DNA from: Nostoc commune NIES-4072
GTDB taxonomy: Bacteria > Cyanobacteriota > Cyanobacteriia > Cyanobacteriales > Nostocaceae
NCBI RefSeq assembly: GCF_003113895.1
Contig: NZ_BDUD01000001.1
Span: 1,773,821 to 1,837,820 of the forward strand
Length of the DNA stretch: 64,000 bases
Direction of reading: 5' to 3'
Below, piece by piece: positions 29,276-35,930 of this stretch. The position numbers were made by a program, and so were the translations under genes. Under the pieces are notes generated by a model. It was given only the letters and a program-made list of their open reading frames with translations. It did not search any database and was not told the origin of the DNA. The stretch's first letter is position 1, and each line of letters begins with the position of its first letter.

Positions 29276-29761
29276 ATGAGAGATGCATTAGGGCAAAGAG
29301 GCGAAGCAATCTTTACAGTATTAATGACGGAATTTCACTCTCATGCTGGCCCTATTTTCAAGCCGCAGTTTTTAGGAGACAAATGGCAATATGTTGATTT
29401 TATTGTAGAGTTGGTAGGGTCTGGTAAATCTGTTCCTTATTTCTTTGTACAAGTTAAAACAACAAGAGAAGGTTATACTAAAAAATATAATCGATTAAAA
29501 GTGAAAGTACGACAAGAAAATGTAATTGGTTTAGCATCTTATCCAGCACCAACTTATATAGTAGGTATTGATGAAATTCAAGAGGTAGGTTACATGGTTT
29601 CTGCAAATGGTGAAAGTCTTAAGTCTATGTCAAGCCTTTCTACCCAATTTAAAATTATCAAACAAAATAGAGAACTGCTATGGCAGGAAGTTGATGATTT
29701 TTGGAGCAGATACCATACTAATCACTTAGTTTCCAAATTTACCGATCGAGACTGGAGATAA
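29276..29761 (+). CDS. DUF4365-like predicted nuclease
   Basis: The 161-residue protein starts with the family-like GQRGEAIFTVLM. The YVDFIVELVG and YFFVQVKTTREG segments match the D and QxK positions of a PD-(D/E)XK fold as in DUF4365. The next gene starts four bases after its stop, with a GGAG ribosome site overlapping the stop. DUF4365 proteins are often found in defence islands. Confidence 0.78.
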   Translation: MRDALGQRGEAIFTVLMTEFHSHAGPIFKPQFLGDKWQYVDFIVELVGSGKSVPYFFVQVKTTREGYTKKYNRLKVKVRQENVIGLASYPAPTYIVGIDEIQEVGYMVSANGESLKSMSSLSTQFKIIKQNRELLWQEVDDFWSRYHTNHLVSKFTDRDWR

Positions 29762-29765
29762 AACA

Positions 29766-30248
29766 ATGAAAACCACAGCACCTTGGTATATTGAAAGACG
29801 GGCAGAATCTCTTGCCATTGTTTACTTAACTCGTCGTGATGACTTGATTATTTCTCAGCCAACACCAAATCAAGGATTAGACTTTTTAATCACAATTACC
29901 AAAGATGGAGTTTATACTGGAAGACTTTTTGGTATTGAAGTAAAAGCAACAGATTCTACATCTAATTTAAAGAAGCATAATGATATTTTAAAGCTAGACA
30001 AAAATAGGTTGAGTAGACTAGAAAAATTTAAAGATTTACCATTTCCCGTTTGCTTATTTTTCTTTATTTTAGAAAACGATCAAGGTTATTATAAATGGAT
30101 TTTAGAACCTAAAATAGATGAAAAAAAGCAATTTAAATTGCACTTTAACGAAGATGATGAACTGAAAAACCTTGATGACAAAGAAATAGCTAATATTATT
30201 TCAAGTATAAATAGTTGGTACGATCATAGAAATAGGATTACTATTTGA
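29766..30248 (+). CDS. Second DUF4365-like protein, 3' end supplied by a MITE-like element
   Basis: The 160 residues show AESLAIVYLTRRDDL, GLDFLITITKDG and LFGIEVKATDS, an intact D...ExK pattern. It appears to be a diverged sister of the preceding gene, and the two probably act together. The last four codons (RITI) and stop come from the MITE-like element starting at 30232, so the original C-terminus has been altered. Confidence 0.75.
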   Translation: MKTTAPWYIERRAESLAIVYLTRRDDLIISQPTPNQGLDFLITITKDGVYTGRLFGIEVKATDSTSNLKKHNDILKLDKNRLSRLEKFKDLPFPVCLFFFILENDQGYYKWILEPKIDEKKQFKLHFNEDDELKNLDDKEIANIISSINSWYDHRNRITI

Positions 30249-31246: not shown

Positions 31247-31532
31247 AAATCACATTATTCTGTGGATACTTTAATGTTACATTTTTTCAGTGTGTTGACT
31301 AAATTGCGGTGATGAGAATATCTCGCAGAACTGTTTAAAATCTGTATGGGGTGGGCAAAATCGCCTACCCTATATTGTATGAATAAAATTATTTCTGCTG
31401 GAATTACTTTTACTCGTTGATTCTCAAGATATATCACAATCGGGGTTTTGAGCTTAAACCCAATAGCTCTGATTAGTACCTCATAATTAAGGAAGGTTTG
31501 AAACTAATGACGACAAACCAGGAGAAGCGTGT

Positions 31533-32720
31533 ATGCAAGTAAGACAAGAAATTTTTGATACTTATTGGCGATTTGCTGCTATGCGCCAGGAAGTATTTTT
31601 CAAAAAAATTAACAATGTACCACCGCCCTGGACGAGTGACCCCATTATTAATACTTATAAATTTTGTAATGCATATCGAGCAAGTGATCGCGTTTCACAA
31701 TATCTGATCAAAAACGTAATTTACGATGAAAATAGGAGCAAAAATCAAGAAGAAGTAATTTTACGGATTCTACTATTTAAAATTTTTAATAAAATAGAAA
31801 CATGGGAATACTTAGAAAACAAAATAGGAGACTATATTACACTGTCTAATTTTGACTCCAATGTGTACTCAGATATATTACAAGAGGCTATGAATCTTGG
31901 ATATGTCATTTATACCAGTGCATATATGTCTTGTGCCAGCAAAGAGTTTGGTTATGATAAAAAACACCAGAATCATTTGGCATTAATCGACAAAATGGTT
32001 GTCCAAGATAGAGTAGTCAATCGCATAGTCAAAGCTAAAAAATTTGAACACGTTTTTCAGCTTATTCAAGAATATCCATTGCTAGGTAAGTTTATGGCTT
32101 ATCAATTAGCGACAGATATTAATTATAGTGAGATTATCAACTTTGACGAAAACAGTTTTACTATAGCAGGCCCAGGAGCCGAACGTGGTATTAGCAAGTG
32201 TTTCGTTGATACAGATGGTAAAACATATACTGATATAATTCATTGGATGACTGAAAACCAAGAGAGAGAGTTTCAACGATTAGAGTTAAACTTTCAATCA
32301 CTCTGGGGTCGTCCGCTACAGGCTATAGACTGTCAAAATCTTTTTTGTGAAACTGATAAATACTGCCGAGCAGCATTTCCTGATTTGAAAAGTAATCGCA
32401 AAAAAATAAAATCGAAATTTACTTCAAGTCCTCAATCAATTGATTATTTTTATCCACCCAAATGGTGTATTAATGATAAAGTCCAAGAAACTTTAGCACA
32501 GAGATTGGCAACATTAGAGATTACTAATTTGCAACTATTAAATAATAGTAATTGTCAGCAATTATCTTTGGAGCTAGATTCTCAGGTAAAAACAACATCT
32601 GAAGTTGCAAATCATGTATCAAAACAATATAAAAAATCTGAACAAGAGACTCAGAGAAAAAAATCAAAAGTTTTACAAAATCCAGAGATGGAAAAACATG
32701 AACAGTTGTGCCTGTTTTAA
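31533..32720 (+). CDS. Predicted DNA base hypermodification protein (HMUDK helical / aGPT-PPlase-like)
   Basis: The 395-residue protein has FDTYWRFAAMRQEVFF, PWTSDPIINTYKFCNAYRAS, VSQYLIKNVIY, AGPGAERGISKCF and DIIHWMTENQEREF. By recall these match the alpha-helical family linked to 5-hydroxymethyl-dU DNA kinases and alpha-glutamyl/putrescinyl-thymine pyrophosphorylases. Those enzymes build hypermodified thymines in phage DNA. There is no P-loop kinase domain. A charged tail (about 330-395) looks disordered. AGGAG lies eight bases before the ATG. It is the first gene of a four-gene cassette. Confidence 0.72.
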   Translation: MQVRQEIFDTYWRFAAMRQEVFFKKINNVPPPWTSDPIINTYKFCNAYRASDRVSQYLIKNVIYDENRSKNQEEVILRILLFKIFNKIETWEYLENKIGDYITLSNFDSNVYSDILQEAMNLGYVIYTSAYMSCASKEFGYDKKHQNHLALIDKMVVQDRVVNRIVKAKKFEHVFQLIQEYPLLGKFMAYQLATDINYSEIINFDENSFTIAGPGAERGISKCFVDTDGKTYTDIIHWMTENQEREFQRLELNFQSLWGRPLQAIDCQNLFCETDKYCRAAFPDLKSNRKKIKSKFTSSPQSIDYFYPPKWCINDKVQETLAQRLATLEITNLQLLNNSNCQQLSLELDSQVKTTSEVANHVSKQYKKSEQETQRKKSKVLQNPEMEKHEQLCLF

Positions 32721-32765
32721 GATAAGCGGCTCTTTATAAATCCACAGTAATTCAGAGTAAAATAC

Positions 32766-33263
32766 ATGGACATAAAAGGATATGCTAAGTTCGACATCAC
32801 TAGAAAGTATCGCTACTTACTGCGGCGTAAATGGGATATAAGTTTACCTCAAGTTACTTTTGTGATGCTTAATCCAAGTACCGCCGATGATAAGAAAAAT
32901 GATCACACTCTCACTAGATGTATTAACTTTGCTAAGTCTTGGAAATATGGTTCTCTTGAAGTAGTTAATCTATTTGCTTATTGTGCTACAAACCCCCGTG
33001 AACTTTGCCAAGTAGATGACCCTGTGGGGCCAAAAAATAACTGCTATATTCAAGTAGCAACAAAACGCGCTGCCTTAATTATTTTGGCATGGGGTGCGGG
33101 GAAATATCCCAGAATTCAGAACCGTGAAAAAGAAGTGTTAAGTCTAATTTCTGATAAACAACCTTTTTACTGCCTAGTTCTAACAAAGTATGGATACCCA
33201 CACCATCCGTTACGTCTTTCAGTTAGTACACAACCAATTATTTTTCCTAGTGATTCTCTATAA
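32766..33263 (+). CDS. DUF1643 protein
   Basis: The 165 residues carry the DUF1643 signature: VTFVMLNPSTADDKKNDHTL, CINFAKSWKYGSLEVVNLFA and a central ILAWGAG. The C-terminal TKYGYPHHPLRLS is also typical. The family is uncharacterised but recurs near DNA-modification and phage nucleotide genes. The gap to the preceding gene is 45 bases. Confidence 0.88.
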   Translation: MDIKGYAKFDITRKYRYLLRRKWDISLPQVTFVMLNPSTADDKKNDHTLTRCINFAKSWKYGSLEVVNLFAYCATNPRELCQVDDPVGPKNNCYIQVATKRAALIILAWGAGKYPRIQNREKEVLSLISDKQPFYCLVLTKYGYPHHPLRLSVSTQPIIFPSDSL

Positions 33264-33371
33264 ATATAGCTTAATTTTATAATGGCAATACTTTTTATTC
33301 ATCATCAGATTTATATTTCATCCTTCAGAGAATCACTATAATCAGCAATTTTCAAATTGGAGATGTCTGTT

Positions 33372-34298
33372 ATGAATTTTTCTGAGTATCAAATACAAGC
33401 ACTGAGCACAGACCAGATTCCTGCTGTGGAAGGTACTGAATTAATTATACCGCTATTAGGTTTAGTAGGTGAAGTTGGTTCATTGATGACTGAGTATAAA
33501 AAACATTTACGTGACGGTGAAGCACACAAACTATTTAAAGAAGGCATCGCAGAAGAATTGGGAGATATGCTTTGGTATATTTCTAACTTGGCAAGCAAGT
33601 TTAACCTTAATTTGGAAGAAATTGCGGAAGATAATTTGAGAAAGTGCCGTGACCGTTGGGGATGGAGAGATTCAGCACAAATAGATGATATAGCTACAAC
33701 CTACATATTCGACAATGATTTTCCTGAAAATGAAAGTTTACCACGGCAATTTGAAGTAGAAATTACGGAGATAAGCAAAGATAACTCAATCAAAATGAAG
33801 GCATTTATCAACAAACAACAGATTGGAAATGACCTCACCGATAATTCTTATACAAGCGATGGCTACCGCTTTCATGATGTTTTTCATTTTTCCTACGCCG
33901 CAGTTTTAGGTTGGTCAGTTATCACTCGTAGTATGCTTAAACGTAAGCGCAAAAGTAATTCTAGTATTGATGAAGTTGAAGACGGCGGTCGTGCAGTAGC
34001 TATTGAGGAAGGTATATCAGCGCTCGTATTTAGCTATGCCAAAAATCACGGTTTCTTAGAAGGCGTTTCAACATTAGATTACCAACTATTGAAGACTATC
34101 AAAAATATGACATCCCATTTAGAAGTTTCTCAATGTTCGCTAGGTGATTGGGAGAAGGCAATTCTCATGGGCTATGATGTCTGGCGACAGGTAGAGAAAA
34201 ATCGGGGAGGAAGGGTAGTTGTTGACCTTGATGCACGCTTGATAACCTATTTGAAAAAGTCTAGCCTGTGTTCAGCCTCCGTGGAGATAAAACATTAA
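33372..34298 (+). CDS. MazG-type nucleotide pyrophosphohydrolase with MazG C-terminal domain
   Basis: Residues 1-100 are a MazG domain: GLVGEVGSLMTEYKKH and AEELGDMLWYISNLA supply the ExxE and ExxD metal-binding motifs. Residues about 165-305 (YRFHDVFHFSYAAVLGWS, VAIEEGISALVFSYA) form a second helical domain seen in MazG proteins of conflict systems, by recall MazG_C. GGAG nine bases before the ATG at 33372 decides the start over two upstream codons. It likely hydrolyses a modified or signalling nucleotide. Confidence 0.85.
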   Translation: MNFSEYQIQALSTDQIPAVEGTELIIPLLGLVGEVGSLMTEYKKHLRDGEAHKLFKEGIAEELGDMLWYISNLASKFNLNLEEIAEDNLRKCRDRWGWRDSAQIDDIATTYIFDNDFPENESLPRQFEVEITEISKDNSIKMKAFINKQQIGNDLTDNSYTSDGYRFHDVFHFSYAAVLGWSVITRSMLKRKRKSNSSIDEVEDGGRAVAIEEGISALVFSYAKNHGFLEGVSTLDYQLLKTIKNMTSHLEVSQCSLGDWEKAILMGYDVWRQVEKNRGGRVVVDLDARLITYLKKSSLCSASVEIKH

Positions 34299-34324
34299 CT
34301 TAACGATATCTTGCAGGAAAATAA

Positions 34325-35020
34325 ATGAGTTTTTGGTCATCACAAACTTTGAGTTCTCGTCTTCCCAGTTTAATTGAACCATTTAATGAGGATCAAATTC
34401 AGTCTGCATCATACGAATTGTGCTTAGGAGAAGAAGTTTATATTTCAGCCCTTCCTGATACACCTCTGAAAGAACGCAAAAAAATTATTCTTAGTGATAA
34501 AGAAACTGTTCCTATCCCTCCAGGACAGTTTGCATTTCTGATAACTTCTGAAAAAGTCAAAGTTCCTAATAATGCACTTGCATTTATTTCGATTAAATTT
34601 AAATTTAAGTCAAAGGGGCTGATTAATGTTTCAGGTCTTCATGTCGATCCAGGCTATAGCGGTAAACTAATTTTTGCTGTTTATAATGCTGGGCCTCTTC
34701 ACCTTCATATAGGGAGAGGTGAGAAAGTTTTTTCTATATGGTATGCAGATTTAGATAAAGATGATGATAAGCCACGAAAGAAGCTAGGTTATGATTTAAT
34801 TCCCACTGATTTAATGAATAGTCCTGATTCAGTTGCTTCTCTTCCTTCTTTGGTAAAACGTTTGGATGATCTGGAGAAAAAAGTAGAGAATTATTCTATT
34901 AAACAGACTTTAGTATTGACGATTACTATTGGAGTTTTACTTGCTTTTGCAAAGCCAATAGTGGATATATTTATACAGCCATTACTCAATATGATTAAAT
35001 CTTCTCTTGTCATCTATTAA
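34325..35020 (+). CDS. dCTP deaminase/dUTPase-fold protein with C-terminal membrane helix
   Basis: Residues 1-160 have the DCD/dUTPase fold: IQSASYELCLG (as in IQPASLDLRLG), PPGQFAFLITSEKV and GLHVDPGYSGKLIFAVYNAG. The Asp of HVDPGYSG (D108) is kept. The Glu that acts in dCTP deaminases (LEFYN) aligns with Ala, and the SSLAR segment is not conserved. Residues about 175-190 may be a short coiled coil and 195-217 a membrane helix. It may be a nucleotide sensor or effector rather than a deaminase. The gap to the MazG gene is 26 bases. Confidence 0.78.
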   Translation: MSFWSSQTLSSRLPSLIEPFNEDQIQSASYELCLGEEVYISALPDTPLKERKKIILSDKETVPIPPGQFAFLITSEKVKVPNNALAFISIKFKFKSKGLINVSGLHVDPGYSGKLIFAVYNAGPLHLHIGRGEKVFSIWYADLDKDDDKPRKKLGYDLIPTDLMNSPDSVASLPSLVKRLDDLEKKVENYSIKQTLVLTITIGVLLAFAKPIVDIFIQPLLNMIKSSLVIY

Positions 35021-35171
35021 TTTTCAATTGCTGCAATGAATTCAAACTGTTGCTATATACTTACACCCAATAAGTGCAAAACTTACAACCATAAAGCCGT
35101 CTAGCACAACAAAGTTTGTTAGATTTATTCAGGATAATAAATAAAATACAAATATAATCTTGTTTGTGTAT

Positions 35172-35930
35172 ATGACTTCCCTATCGGCATTAACTTTACC
35201 TGATCACACCCAGTTACCAGACTCAAATGGTACATTCGTGAAAAATCTTCAGGAGCATCCGCAAAGCATTTTAATTACAGATTCAATTAAACCTGTTTTA
35301 GAGCAACTTCATCCTGACGGTCAATATTGTATTGGACAAGATTCTGGTATTTACTGGCGATTGACAAATCCTCCTGAGAAAGGGGCTGAAGCACCAGACT
35401 GGTTTTATGTACCCAATGTACCACCGACCCTTGACGGTAAAATGCGGCGTTCTTATGTGCTGTGGAAGGAGTATGTTGCACCCTTGATTGTGCTGGAATT
35501 TGTCTCTGGAGATGGTTCAGAAGAACGAGATAACACACCGCCATCTCAACGGGATGGTGGGAATGTTGGTAAATTTTGGGTTTATGAGCAGGCAATTCGA
35601 GTGCCTTATTATGGAATTTATGAAGTAGCAAAAGCGCAAGTGGAAGTTTACCATTTAGTGGATAATACTTATCAATTGATGAAACCCAATGAACGAGGAC
35701 ATTACCCAATTGCTCCTATGGGGGTAGAGTTAGGAATCTGGCAAGGATTTTATCAGAATGCAGAGTTACCTTGGTTGCGCTGGTGGGATGCACAAGGAAA
35801 TTTACTGCTAACAGGTGAGGAACGGGCTGTAATTGAGCGACAAAAGCGGGAGAGAATTGTAGAGAAATTGCGTACTCTCTCTCTTGAACAACTCAACGCT
35901 TTAGGAATTGACCCAGAAATGTTGGATTAA
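35172..35930 (+). CDS. Uma2-family (DUF820) protein
   Basis: The protein shows APDWFYVPNVPPT, VLEFVSGDGSEERD and YYGIYE, the motif series of large cyanobacterial Uma2 proteins. The C-terminal ERQKRERIVEKLRTLSLEQL is typical. The ATG at 35172 is chosen over TTG and GTG codons upstream. It follows the cassette by about 150 bases and may be unrelated to it. Confidence 0.88.
   Translation: MTSLSALTLPDHTQLPDSNGTFVKNLQEHPQSILITDSIKPVLEQLHPDGQYCIGQDSGIYWRLTNPPEKGAEAPDWFYVPNVPPTLDGKMRRSYVLWKEYVAPLIVLEFVSGDGSEERDNTPPSQRDGGNVGKFWVYEQAIRVPYYGIYEVAKAQVEVYHLVDNTYQLMKPNERGHYPIAPMGVELGIWQGFYQNAELPWLRWWDAQGNLLLTGEERAVIERQKRERIVEKLRTLSLEQLNALGIDPEMLD

Follow-up and report, generated by a model that had tools for sequence, protein, structure and literature searches.

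Phages evade restriction by thymidine hypermodification, and clusters of genes for this pathway, such as genes 46-51 of phage PaMx11 and genes 38-41 of Brevibacterium phage LuckyBarnes, encode a protein of the PF18723 family (HMUDK_hel or aGPT-Pplase-type) beside or near genes of the thymidylate synthase family. Among bacterial proteins, dCTP deaminases (DCD) act against phage. In DefensePredictor (2026, PMC13092281, Fig. 6F; cited throughout from part of the paper), aGPT-Pplase, MazG, MazG-C, dUTPase and NMAD domains are predicted, and not validated there, to be defensive, and the newly validated defence domains include 5-hydroxymethyluracil kinase and thymidylate synthase, found in Escherichia coli systems that give phage protection. 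Here we analyze a cassette of four genes in a window of 64,000 nucleotides (contig NZ_BDUD01000001.1, positions 1,773,821 to 1,837,820) from the 8.2 Mb genome of the cyanobacterium Nostoc commune NIES-4072, which shares its domain vocabulary with these predicted systems and looks like a stripped-down form of a wider bacterial anti-virus system.

The cassette encodes a PF18723 protein, a DUF1643 protein, a protein consisting of MazG and MazG_C parts and a DCD-fold protein with a C-terminal membrane helix. Like the validated E. coli systems it includes a putative enzyme of the thymidine-modification type but, unlike them, no thymidylate synthase and no P-loop kinase; it shares the DCD fold with the anti-phage deaminases but differs from them in catalytic positions and in the added helix; and it differs from the phage clusters, in which MazG_C, the membrane DCD and the motifs described below are rare or were not found. 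The portion of PMC13092281 used here does not describe this gene set, the clamp motifs, the DCD substitutions or a variant from cyanobacteria, and the main text, to the same extent, does not mention DUF1643. The exact set was not found in the literature searched, a search that was not aimed at clamp motifs in PF18723 proteins, and in that literature the support for this widespread system is computational only. The presence of relatives of hypermodification enzymes in mobile, immune-like operons suggests that this chemistry became, or first arose as, a weapon.

PF18723 and MazG_C, with the membrane DCD protein in about half of the loci, travel together, patchily, on chromosomes and plasmids. 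Among 292 cyanobacterial genomes, PF18723 was detected in 14 and PF18722 (MazG_C) in nine, all nine among those 14 and always on the same contig and strand, less than 1.5 kb from PF18723; of the five PF18723 genomes without PF18722, G087 and G155 have the gene close to the end of a contig, and the other three are members of family f31. A contig scan yielded 217 PF18723 relatives, of which the best 80 loci by similarity were kept, making 81 with the window, so that close relatives are over-represented in the clade frequencies. Sorted by local profile searches, these loci comprise clade A (27 loci with Nostocales-type titles; 68-94% identity to the window protein for the nine others in alignment A1) and clade B (54 loci from many phyla, some cut by contig ends; 47-57% identity for aligned members); Nostoc sp. 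B(2019) carries one of each (L018, L048). In clade A, DUF1643 is found in 25/27 loci (as partial frames in L022 and L035), MazG_C in 23/27 and DCD in 11/27 (truncated in L032), with all four genes in 11/27; DCD is absent downstream in ten clade A loci that extend more than 6 kb past MazG_C. Clade B loci encode MazG_C (41/54), DCD (28/54), a thymidylate-synthase-like protein (TSL, 48/54), a helix-turn-helix (HTH) protein and IrrE (46/54 each), an acyl carrier protein-like (ACP) protein (43/54), AcpS (39/54) and a ThyA-like protein (12/54). DUF1643 follows PF18723 in none of the 54, although two have it downstream on the opposite strand. The preliminary description of this DNA had expected the four families to co-occur in other genomes, which they do, and had treated them as a fixed unit, which they are not: the four-gene set is the form that a larger modular system takes in one lineage.

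Distances between PF18723 proteins correlate with those between their partners: MazG_C (r 0.71, 64 loci), DCD (0.88, 39), TSL (0.85, 48), IrrE (0.90, 46) and DUF1643 (0.59, 27), values that none of 2000 permutations reached. These correlations owe part to shared species history, and within clade A alone they are lower (DCD 0.50, 11 loci; DUF1643 0.43, 25 loci).

At the locus itself (Table 1), the four consecutive genes, their common strand, the family names and the membrane helix given in the preliminary description all held up, each family being matched by a Pfam profile and the C-terminal hydrophobic segment of the DCD-fold protein being confirmed by hydropathy; the first gene, whose match to an unrelated family would have told against the reading, scores far above the curated PF18723 cut-off of 25 bits. 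The intergenic gaps are 45, 93 (108 if MazG starts at ATG 33372) and 26 bases. No terminator-like site was found between 31240 and 35180, where shuffled sequences lead one to expect 1.6, which is compatible with, but does not prove, a single transcript. None of the four proteins matched a PADLOC-DB 2.0.0 profile at E <= 0.1. The Pfam families concerned presumably stem from earlier comparative-genomic work.

Table 1. Features of the cassette and its insertion, in window positions
Feature	Position	Strand	Evidence
Accessory insertion	31267..35170	+	blastn and tblastn against L136-L139; GC 34.7%
PF18723 (HMUDK_hel / aGPT-Pplase-type) protein, 395 aa	31533..32720	+	Pfam 360.6 bits
First clamp-binding-like motif QLSLEL, residues 343-348 of PF18723 protein	32559..32576	+	
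Second clamp-binding-like motif, terminal QLCLF, residues 391-395 of PF18723 protein	32703..32717	+	
DUF1643 protein, 165 aa	32766..33263	+	Pfam PF07799 165.9 bits
MazG + MazG_C protein	33372..34298 (open reading frame from TTG 33357)	+	PF03819 22.3 bits, PF18722 283.6 bits
DCD-fold protein, 231 aa, C-terminal membrane helix	34325..35020	+	Pfam PF22769 63.8 bits
DCD membrane helix	~34907-34963	+	hydropathy, 19-residue mean 2.09

The cassette occupies an accessory insertion whose edges, in pairwise alignments with four sister genomes, fall at 31250-31266 on the left and 35171-35179 on the right. PF18723 is absent from all four same-genus genomes in the 292-genome sample, and blastn and tblastn show that these cassette-less sisters keep the surrounding acs, TPR and Uma2 genes; the cassette is found in further named Nostoc genomes (L015-L020), and the nearest named relative at this locus is L015, a Nostoc whose PF18723 protein is 94% identical. 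At 34.7% GC vs 40.7% for the window, the cassette is AT-rich, and 4% of same-size windows have an equal or lower GC content. In the sisters, the interval from TPR to Uma2 contains other DNA, ~0.1 to 1.75 kb long, which makes the slot variable and places Uma2 outside the insertion. In the G167 sister this DNA encodes an AAA ATPase with matches to PADLOC HEC-04 (154 bits) and to Pfam AAA_21. The flanking nuclease genes had been taken as a sign of a defence island; given that 4/4 sisters have both Uma2, downstream, and TPR, upstream, but no cassette, we reject Uma2 as evidence of such an island, and the variable slot with a HEC-04-like gene in one sister is better evidence for defence. In the sister G068, the slot (L137:3710-5134) encodes a 474-aa protein, possibly an accessory or defence gene, that matched neither Pfam nor PADLOC at E 0.001.

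This patchiness bears on a house-cleaning or repair function, whereby a clamp-bound glycosylase-like protein, together with MazG and DCD, would clear oxidised thymine (5-hydroxymethyl-dU) or otherwise damaged nucleotides from both the nucleotide pool and newly made DNA. Such a function, which we consider rather unlikely, sits poorly with a cassette core missing from 278/292 cyanobacterial genomes as well as from the sampled sisters and with a slot occupied in two sisters by other accessory genes. The plasmid-borne relatives, and the immune genes described next, which adjoin some copies, argue against it as well.

On a Gloeothece plasmid, the gene for a phospholipase of the cyclic oligonucleotide-based anti-phage signaling system (CBASS) overlaps the PF18723 gene; MazG_C, a ThsB-type TIR gene and Nmad2 come next. 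This relative thus resembles CBASS in its phospholipase; no CBASS cyclase is annotated in 8.2 kb of the plasmid, in which no search aimed at one was made. TIR and Nmad2 genes start less than 4.1 kb from the PF18723 start in 5/54 clade B loci. Phospholipase and TIR genes next to the core in other genomes are consistent with a membrane protein that would act as sensor or effector in the cassette. Taken together with the patchy, mobile occurrence and the variable slot, these neighbours support, on genomic grounds, the defence role proposed in the preliminary description, and we consider that the cassette probably has such a role.

A Parabacteroides plasmid operon (L126:5850-10492) comprises, in this order, TIR, Nmad2, PF18723, radical SAM and a 521-aa protein. 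A Rhizobium plasmid (L125:1845-7987) encodes holo-ACP synthase, HTH, IrrE, a C1 peptidase, small genes, DCD and PF18723, the peptidase being a possible further effector candidate. An Acinetobacter plasmid carries a gene annotated as encoding an adenylate/guanylate cyclase domain protein (L128:10187-11242) ~3 kb from its PF18723 frames, which are annotated as two coding sequences.

The commonest order in clade B is ACP, HTH, IrrE, TSL, PF18723, MazG_C, AcpS and DCD being placed after or among these genes. In L041, Pfam names HTH_3, Peptidase_M78, PF18723, MazG_C and ACPS, and the ACP-like and TSL proteins of this locus have no Pfam match. The TSL profile weakly matches CMP 5-hydroxymethylase in the PDB (E 0.006); its Cys is invariant in 13/13 sequences, and the protein is annotated as thymidylate synthase on two cyanobacterial plasmids. 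The ACP-like protein keeps its Ser in 42/43 sequences and is annotated as acyl carrier protein on one plasmid. Clade B operons place a carrier protein, with the enzyme that activates it, in a DNA-base pathway, which is a notable combination. These partners (TSL, carrier protein, AcpS) would also suit a self-marking function, with the cassette putting modified thymidine into host DNA as an epigenetic mark or as protection against other systems while DCD and MazG tune the nucleotide pool. We hold this explanation to be unlikely, given that no nuclease family emerged as a constant partner in the clustering of neighbours.

As the best of several modest PADLOC matches, the HTH protein of L066 matches capH (43 bits) and the IrrE protein of L041 matches capP (45 bits). 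CapH and CapP control immune operons via single-stranded DNA, according to the part of PMC13373217 on which we rely. The clade B pair resembles such DNA-damage-responsive regulators, a point in favour of house-cleaning or repair. The window and 27/27 clade A loci, as far as they were fetched, have no such pair.

The PF18723 match of the first protein spans residues 6-286 (positions 2-280 of 281 of the profile). Its structural model (mean predicted local distance difference test score 82.4) has a core of ~residues 1-320 and a low-confidence tail, residues 340-395 (score below 50), which is probably disordered. The 39 sequences of alignment A1 share 74 invariant residues, 28 of which are kept in at least 6/7 phage or viral relatives. 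The protein is homologous to gene 50 of PaMx11 (hhalign probability 99.5, E 1.4e-22). Pfam detected no kinase family in eight window proteins scanned, and the 395 residues match PF18723 alone; the protein thus does not appear to carry the P-loop of a 5-hydroxymethyl-dU DNA kinase, and PaMx11 encodes its P-loop protein by a separate gene, 49. The model gives glycosylase-like fold matches, which are among the points that speak for house-cleaning or repair. We rejected a glycinyltransferase assignment: the fold resembles 8z2m, but PF18724, the amino acid:DNA transferase family of that structure, is absent from the Pfam list for this protein at E <= 0.01, and hhalign with PaMx11 gene 46 gave only E 0.46. 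In a Gemmataceae metagenome-assembled genome (L043:7887-9866), PF18723 and MazG_C are naturally fused in one open frame of 659 aa.

The tail contains two putative sliding clamp-binding motifs. Clamp-binding sequences follow the consensus QL[S/D]LF or QxxLF, with the PolC motif located at the C terminus and QLSLPL binding tightly (PMC12309361, consulted in part); both QLSLEL and the terminal QLCLF of the window protein resemble such sequences and lie in the low-confidence tail. Terminal QLxLF occurs in 21/27 clade A PF18723 proteins vs 1/4238 other open reading frames in the same loci, a set that includes spurious frames, and at a rate of 7e-5 in shuffled tails. The exceptions are L020, L022 and L027, with residues beyond the motif, L028, which ends in QLCL, L031, with QLCLPF, and L034, a shorter frame. 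An alignment of 25/27 clade A tails, without L034 and L054, shows no variation in the Q, L, L and F columns other than the F missing in L028; the linker columns are highly variable. An upstream second motif, QLSLx[L/F], is present in 20/27. Among ten cyanobacterial clade B proteins, two of which share identical N-termini, nine have an N-terminal QLSL or QLSF and the tenth has QLNF; QLS[L/F] is found in the first 60 residues of 0/50 other clade B proteins. Since the motifs lie at opposite ends of the protein in the two clades, they appear to have been gained twice. Three near-identical cyanobacterial proteins of family f31 have no clamp motif.

The clamp motifs count in favour of a house-cleaning or repair protein and, as they would permit post-replicative modification of host DNA, of self-marking as well. 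Motif columns that are fully conserved inside a fast-changing tail, and the 74 invariant residues, weigh against yet another explanation, namely that the cassette consists of domesticated phage or plasmid modification genes that have no current immune role and drift after transfer. We consider this quite improbable.

The preliminary description had MazG hydrolyzing nucleotides and DCD acting on dCTP or dUTP, which the residues found at the expected catalytic positions do not bear out. The metal ligands of MazG pyrophosphohydrolases we take to be EXXE...EXXD. The second metal-binding Glu is Ser in 23/23 clade A proteins, and clade B has Q 16, E 11, S 6 and T 1 at this position; the EELGD half is retained in the window protein, which thus lacks part of the ligand set predicted for a pyrophosphohydrolase. 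The PF03819 match (cut-off 22) is marginal, and the model matches the MazG fold, mainly over the MazG part (~33468-33656; MazG_C ~33699-34256), a fold near the house-cleaning pyrophosphohydrolases and in so far consistent with a house-cleaning function. Most homologues begin with M(N/D)F, which makes ATG 33372 the likely start. Given that the MazG part is altered in clade A and missing from 7/41 clade B MazG_C proteins, MazG_C is the constant piece.

The DCD family profile finds dCTP deaminases as its best PDB matches (E 1.2e-22), and the protein scores below the NCBIfam dCTP_deam cut-off (74.3 vs 92.8). We take the catalytic Ser, Arg and Glu of the deaminases to be residues 111, 115 and 138 in E. 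coli numbering and placed them from a profile alignment with 4xjc. Over the 28 DCD sequences of alignment A3, the Glu position has A 15, S 12 and T 1, the Arg position has no Arg in 28/28, and the Ser position has A 16, F 9, S 2 and T 1, so that Arg and Glu are changed in all 28 and Ser in 26. A Lys, an Asn and most of a GLxNVSG...VDP stretch are invariant or nearly so. The hydrophobic C-terminal segment reaches the threshold in 35/36 full-length family members, four fragments being left out of the count. These features fit a ligand-binding, non-deaminating membrane protein, and the altered residues count against a house-cleaning role.

Our preferred reading, in which a mobile cassette defends against phage by acting on thymidine-derived bases at replicating DNA, strikes us as evenly poised between right and wrong together with the following mechanism. 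The PF18723 protein would act on thymine-derived DNA bases (5-hydroxymethyl-dU or phosphorylated forms), as is supposed for its phage relatives; in cyanobacteria the putative clamp motifs would tether it to the replication fork, where it would meet newly made phage DNA. MazG/MazG_C may process the matching nucleotide or product, and the DCD protein, with its altered deaminase residues and strongly conserved pocket, may be a membrane-anchored receptor for that nucleotide that would relay the alarm to the membrane or act on the membrane; elsewhere, CBASS-type phospholipase or TIR/Nmad2 genes adjoin the core. The most specific version, with a clamp-bound thymine-modifying enzyme on nascent phage DNA and a deaminase-dead membrane DCD serving as receptor or effector, in whose place other genomes would use a phospholipase or a TIR/Nmad2 module, is tentative and, in its full detail, doubtful. 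On the remaining plasmids no defence neighbour is obvious. A caution on the altered DCD residues comes from the nearest solved chains, 9ln0 and 8y1w, described by their depositors as dCTP deaminase, which themselves have Met at the Glu position in the printed alignments, though both retain the deaminase Arg and Ser. The clamp motifs and the changed DCD yield specific predictions for peptide binding, nucleotide binding and point mutants.

Kinship with phage genes bears on two of the alternatives. PF18723 relatives were found in 489/50,697 phage records, all with less than 60% identity, and this kinship would suit self-marking. The cassette has no thymidylate-synthase-family hydroxymethylase, the partner expected in a phage-type thymidine hypermodification pathway, and no kinase. 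PF00303 had no match in the genome (9/14 control genomes were matched; ThyX was not searched for), and a TSL search of the genome, run without a positive control, was empty; the missing hydroxymethylase, kinase and PF00303 speak against self-marking. Among the matches listed for 19 viral loci, a ThyA-family gene is present in the fetched stretch of 11, partners of the clade B type in three (L140, L142, L145), MazG_C in one (L145) and the family DCD in none; none of the 7/7 phage or viral PF18723 proteins checked has a clamp motif. Domestication would account for the existence of phage relatives and for the three viral contigs with clade B-type partners, as well as for the match of the MazG/MazG_C protein (residues 1-296, 148 bits) to phage family phrog_229, which means that MazG_C-type proteins are not confined to cells. 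Decayed-looking copies point the same way: in L028 (8001-9203), DUF1643, MazG_C and DCD went undetected and the PF18723 protein lacks the last residue of QLCLF, and L026 has a split MazG_C frame. The scarcity of MazG_C and DCD at the viral loci argues against domestication, as does the fact that only 2/50,697 phage records match the membrane DCD, with 50-57% of the protein covered.

In phage LuckyBarnes (L130:2858-6873), a thymidylate synthase and two glycosyltransferases precede PF18723, which suggests that thymine is modified with a sugar. In the window, two adjacent DUF4365 genes (29276-30248) lie upstream of the TPR gene and are likewise accessory; they are partly kept in sister G068 and have no match in G125, G167 and G278; we rejected them as part of the cassette, as both members occur in 2/81 loci (the window and L020) and one in two more, some loci ending before that position. 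The DUF1643 profile matched no PDB chain up to E 10. Its LNPS...HP motifs raised the idea of a uracil-DNA-glycosylase fold, which we rejected because hhalign against cyanobacterial PF03167 (E 0.57; 20/22 loci usable) was no better than against four unrelated controls (0.47-0.68). DUF1643 is present in 78/292 cyanobacterial genomes, mostly ones without PF18723, and is therefore a general family that was recruited into the cassette.

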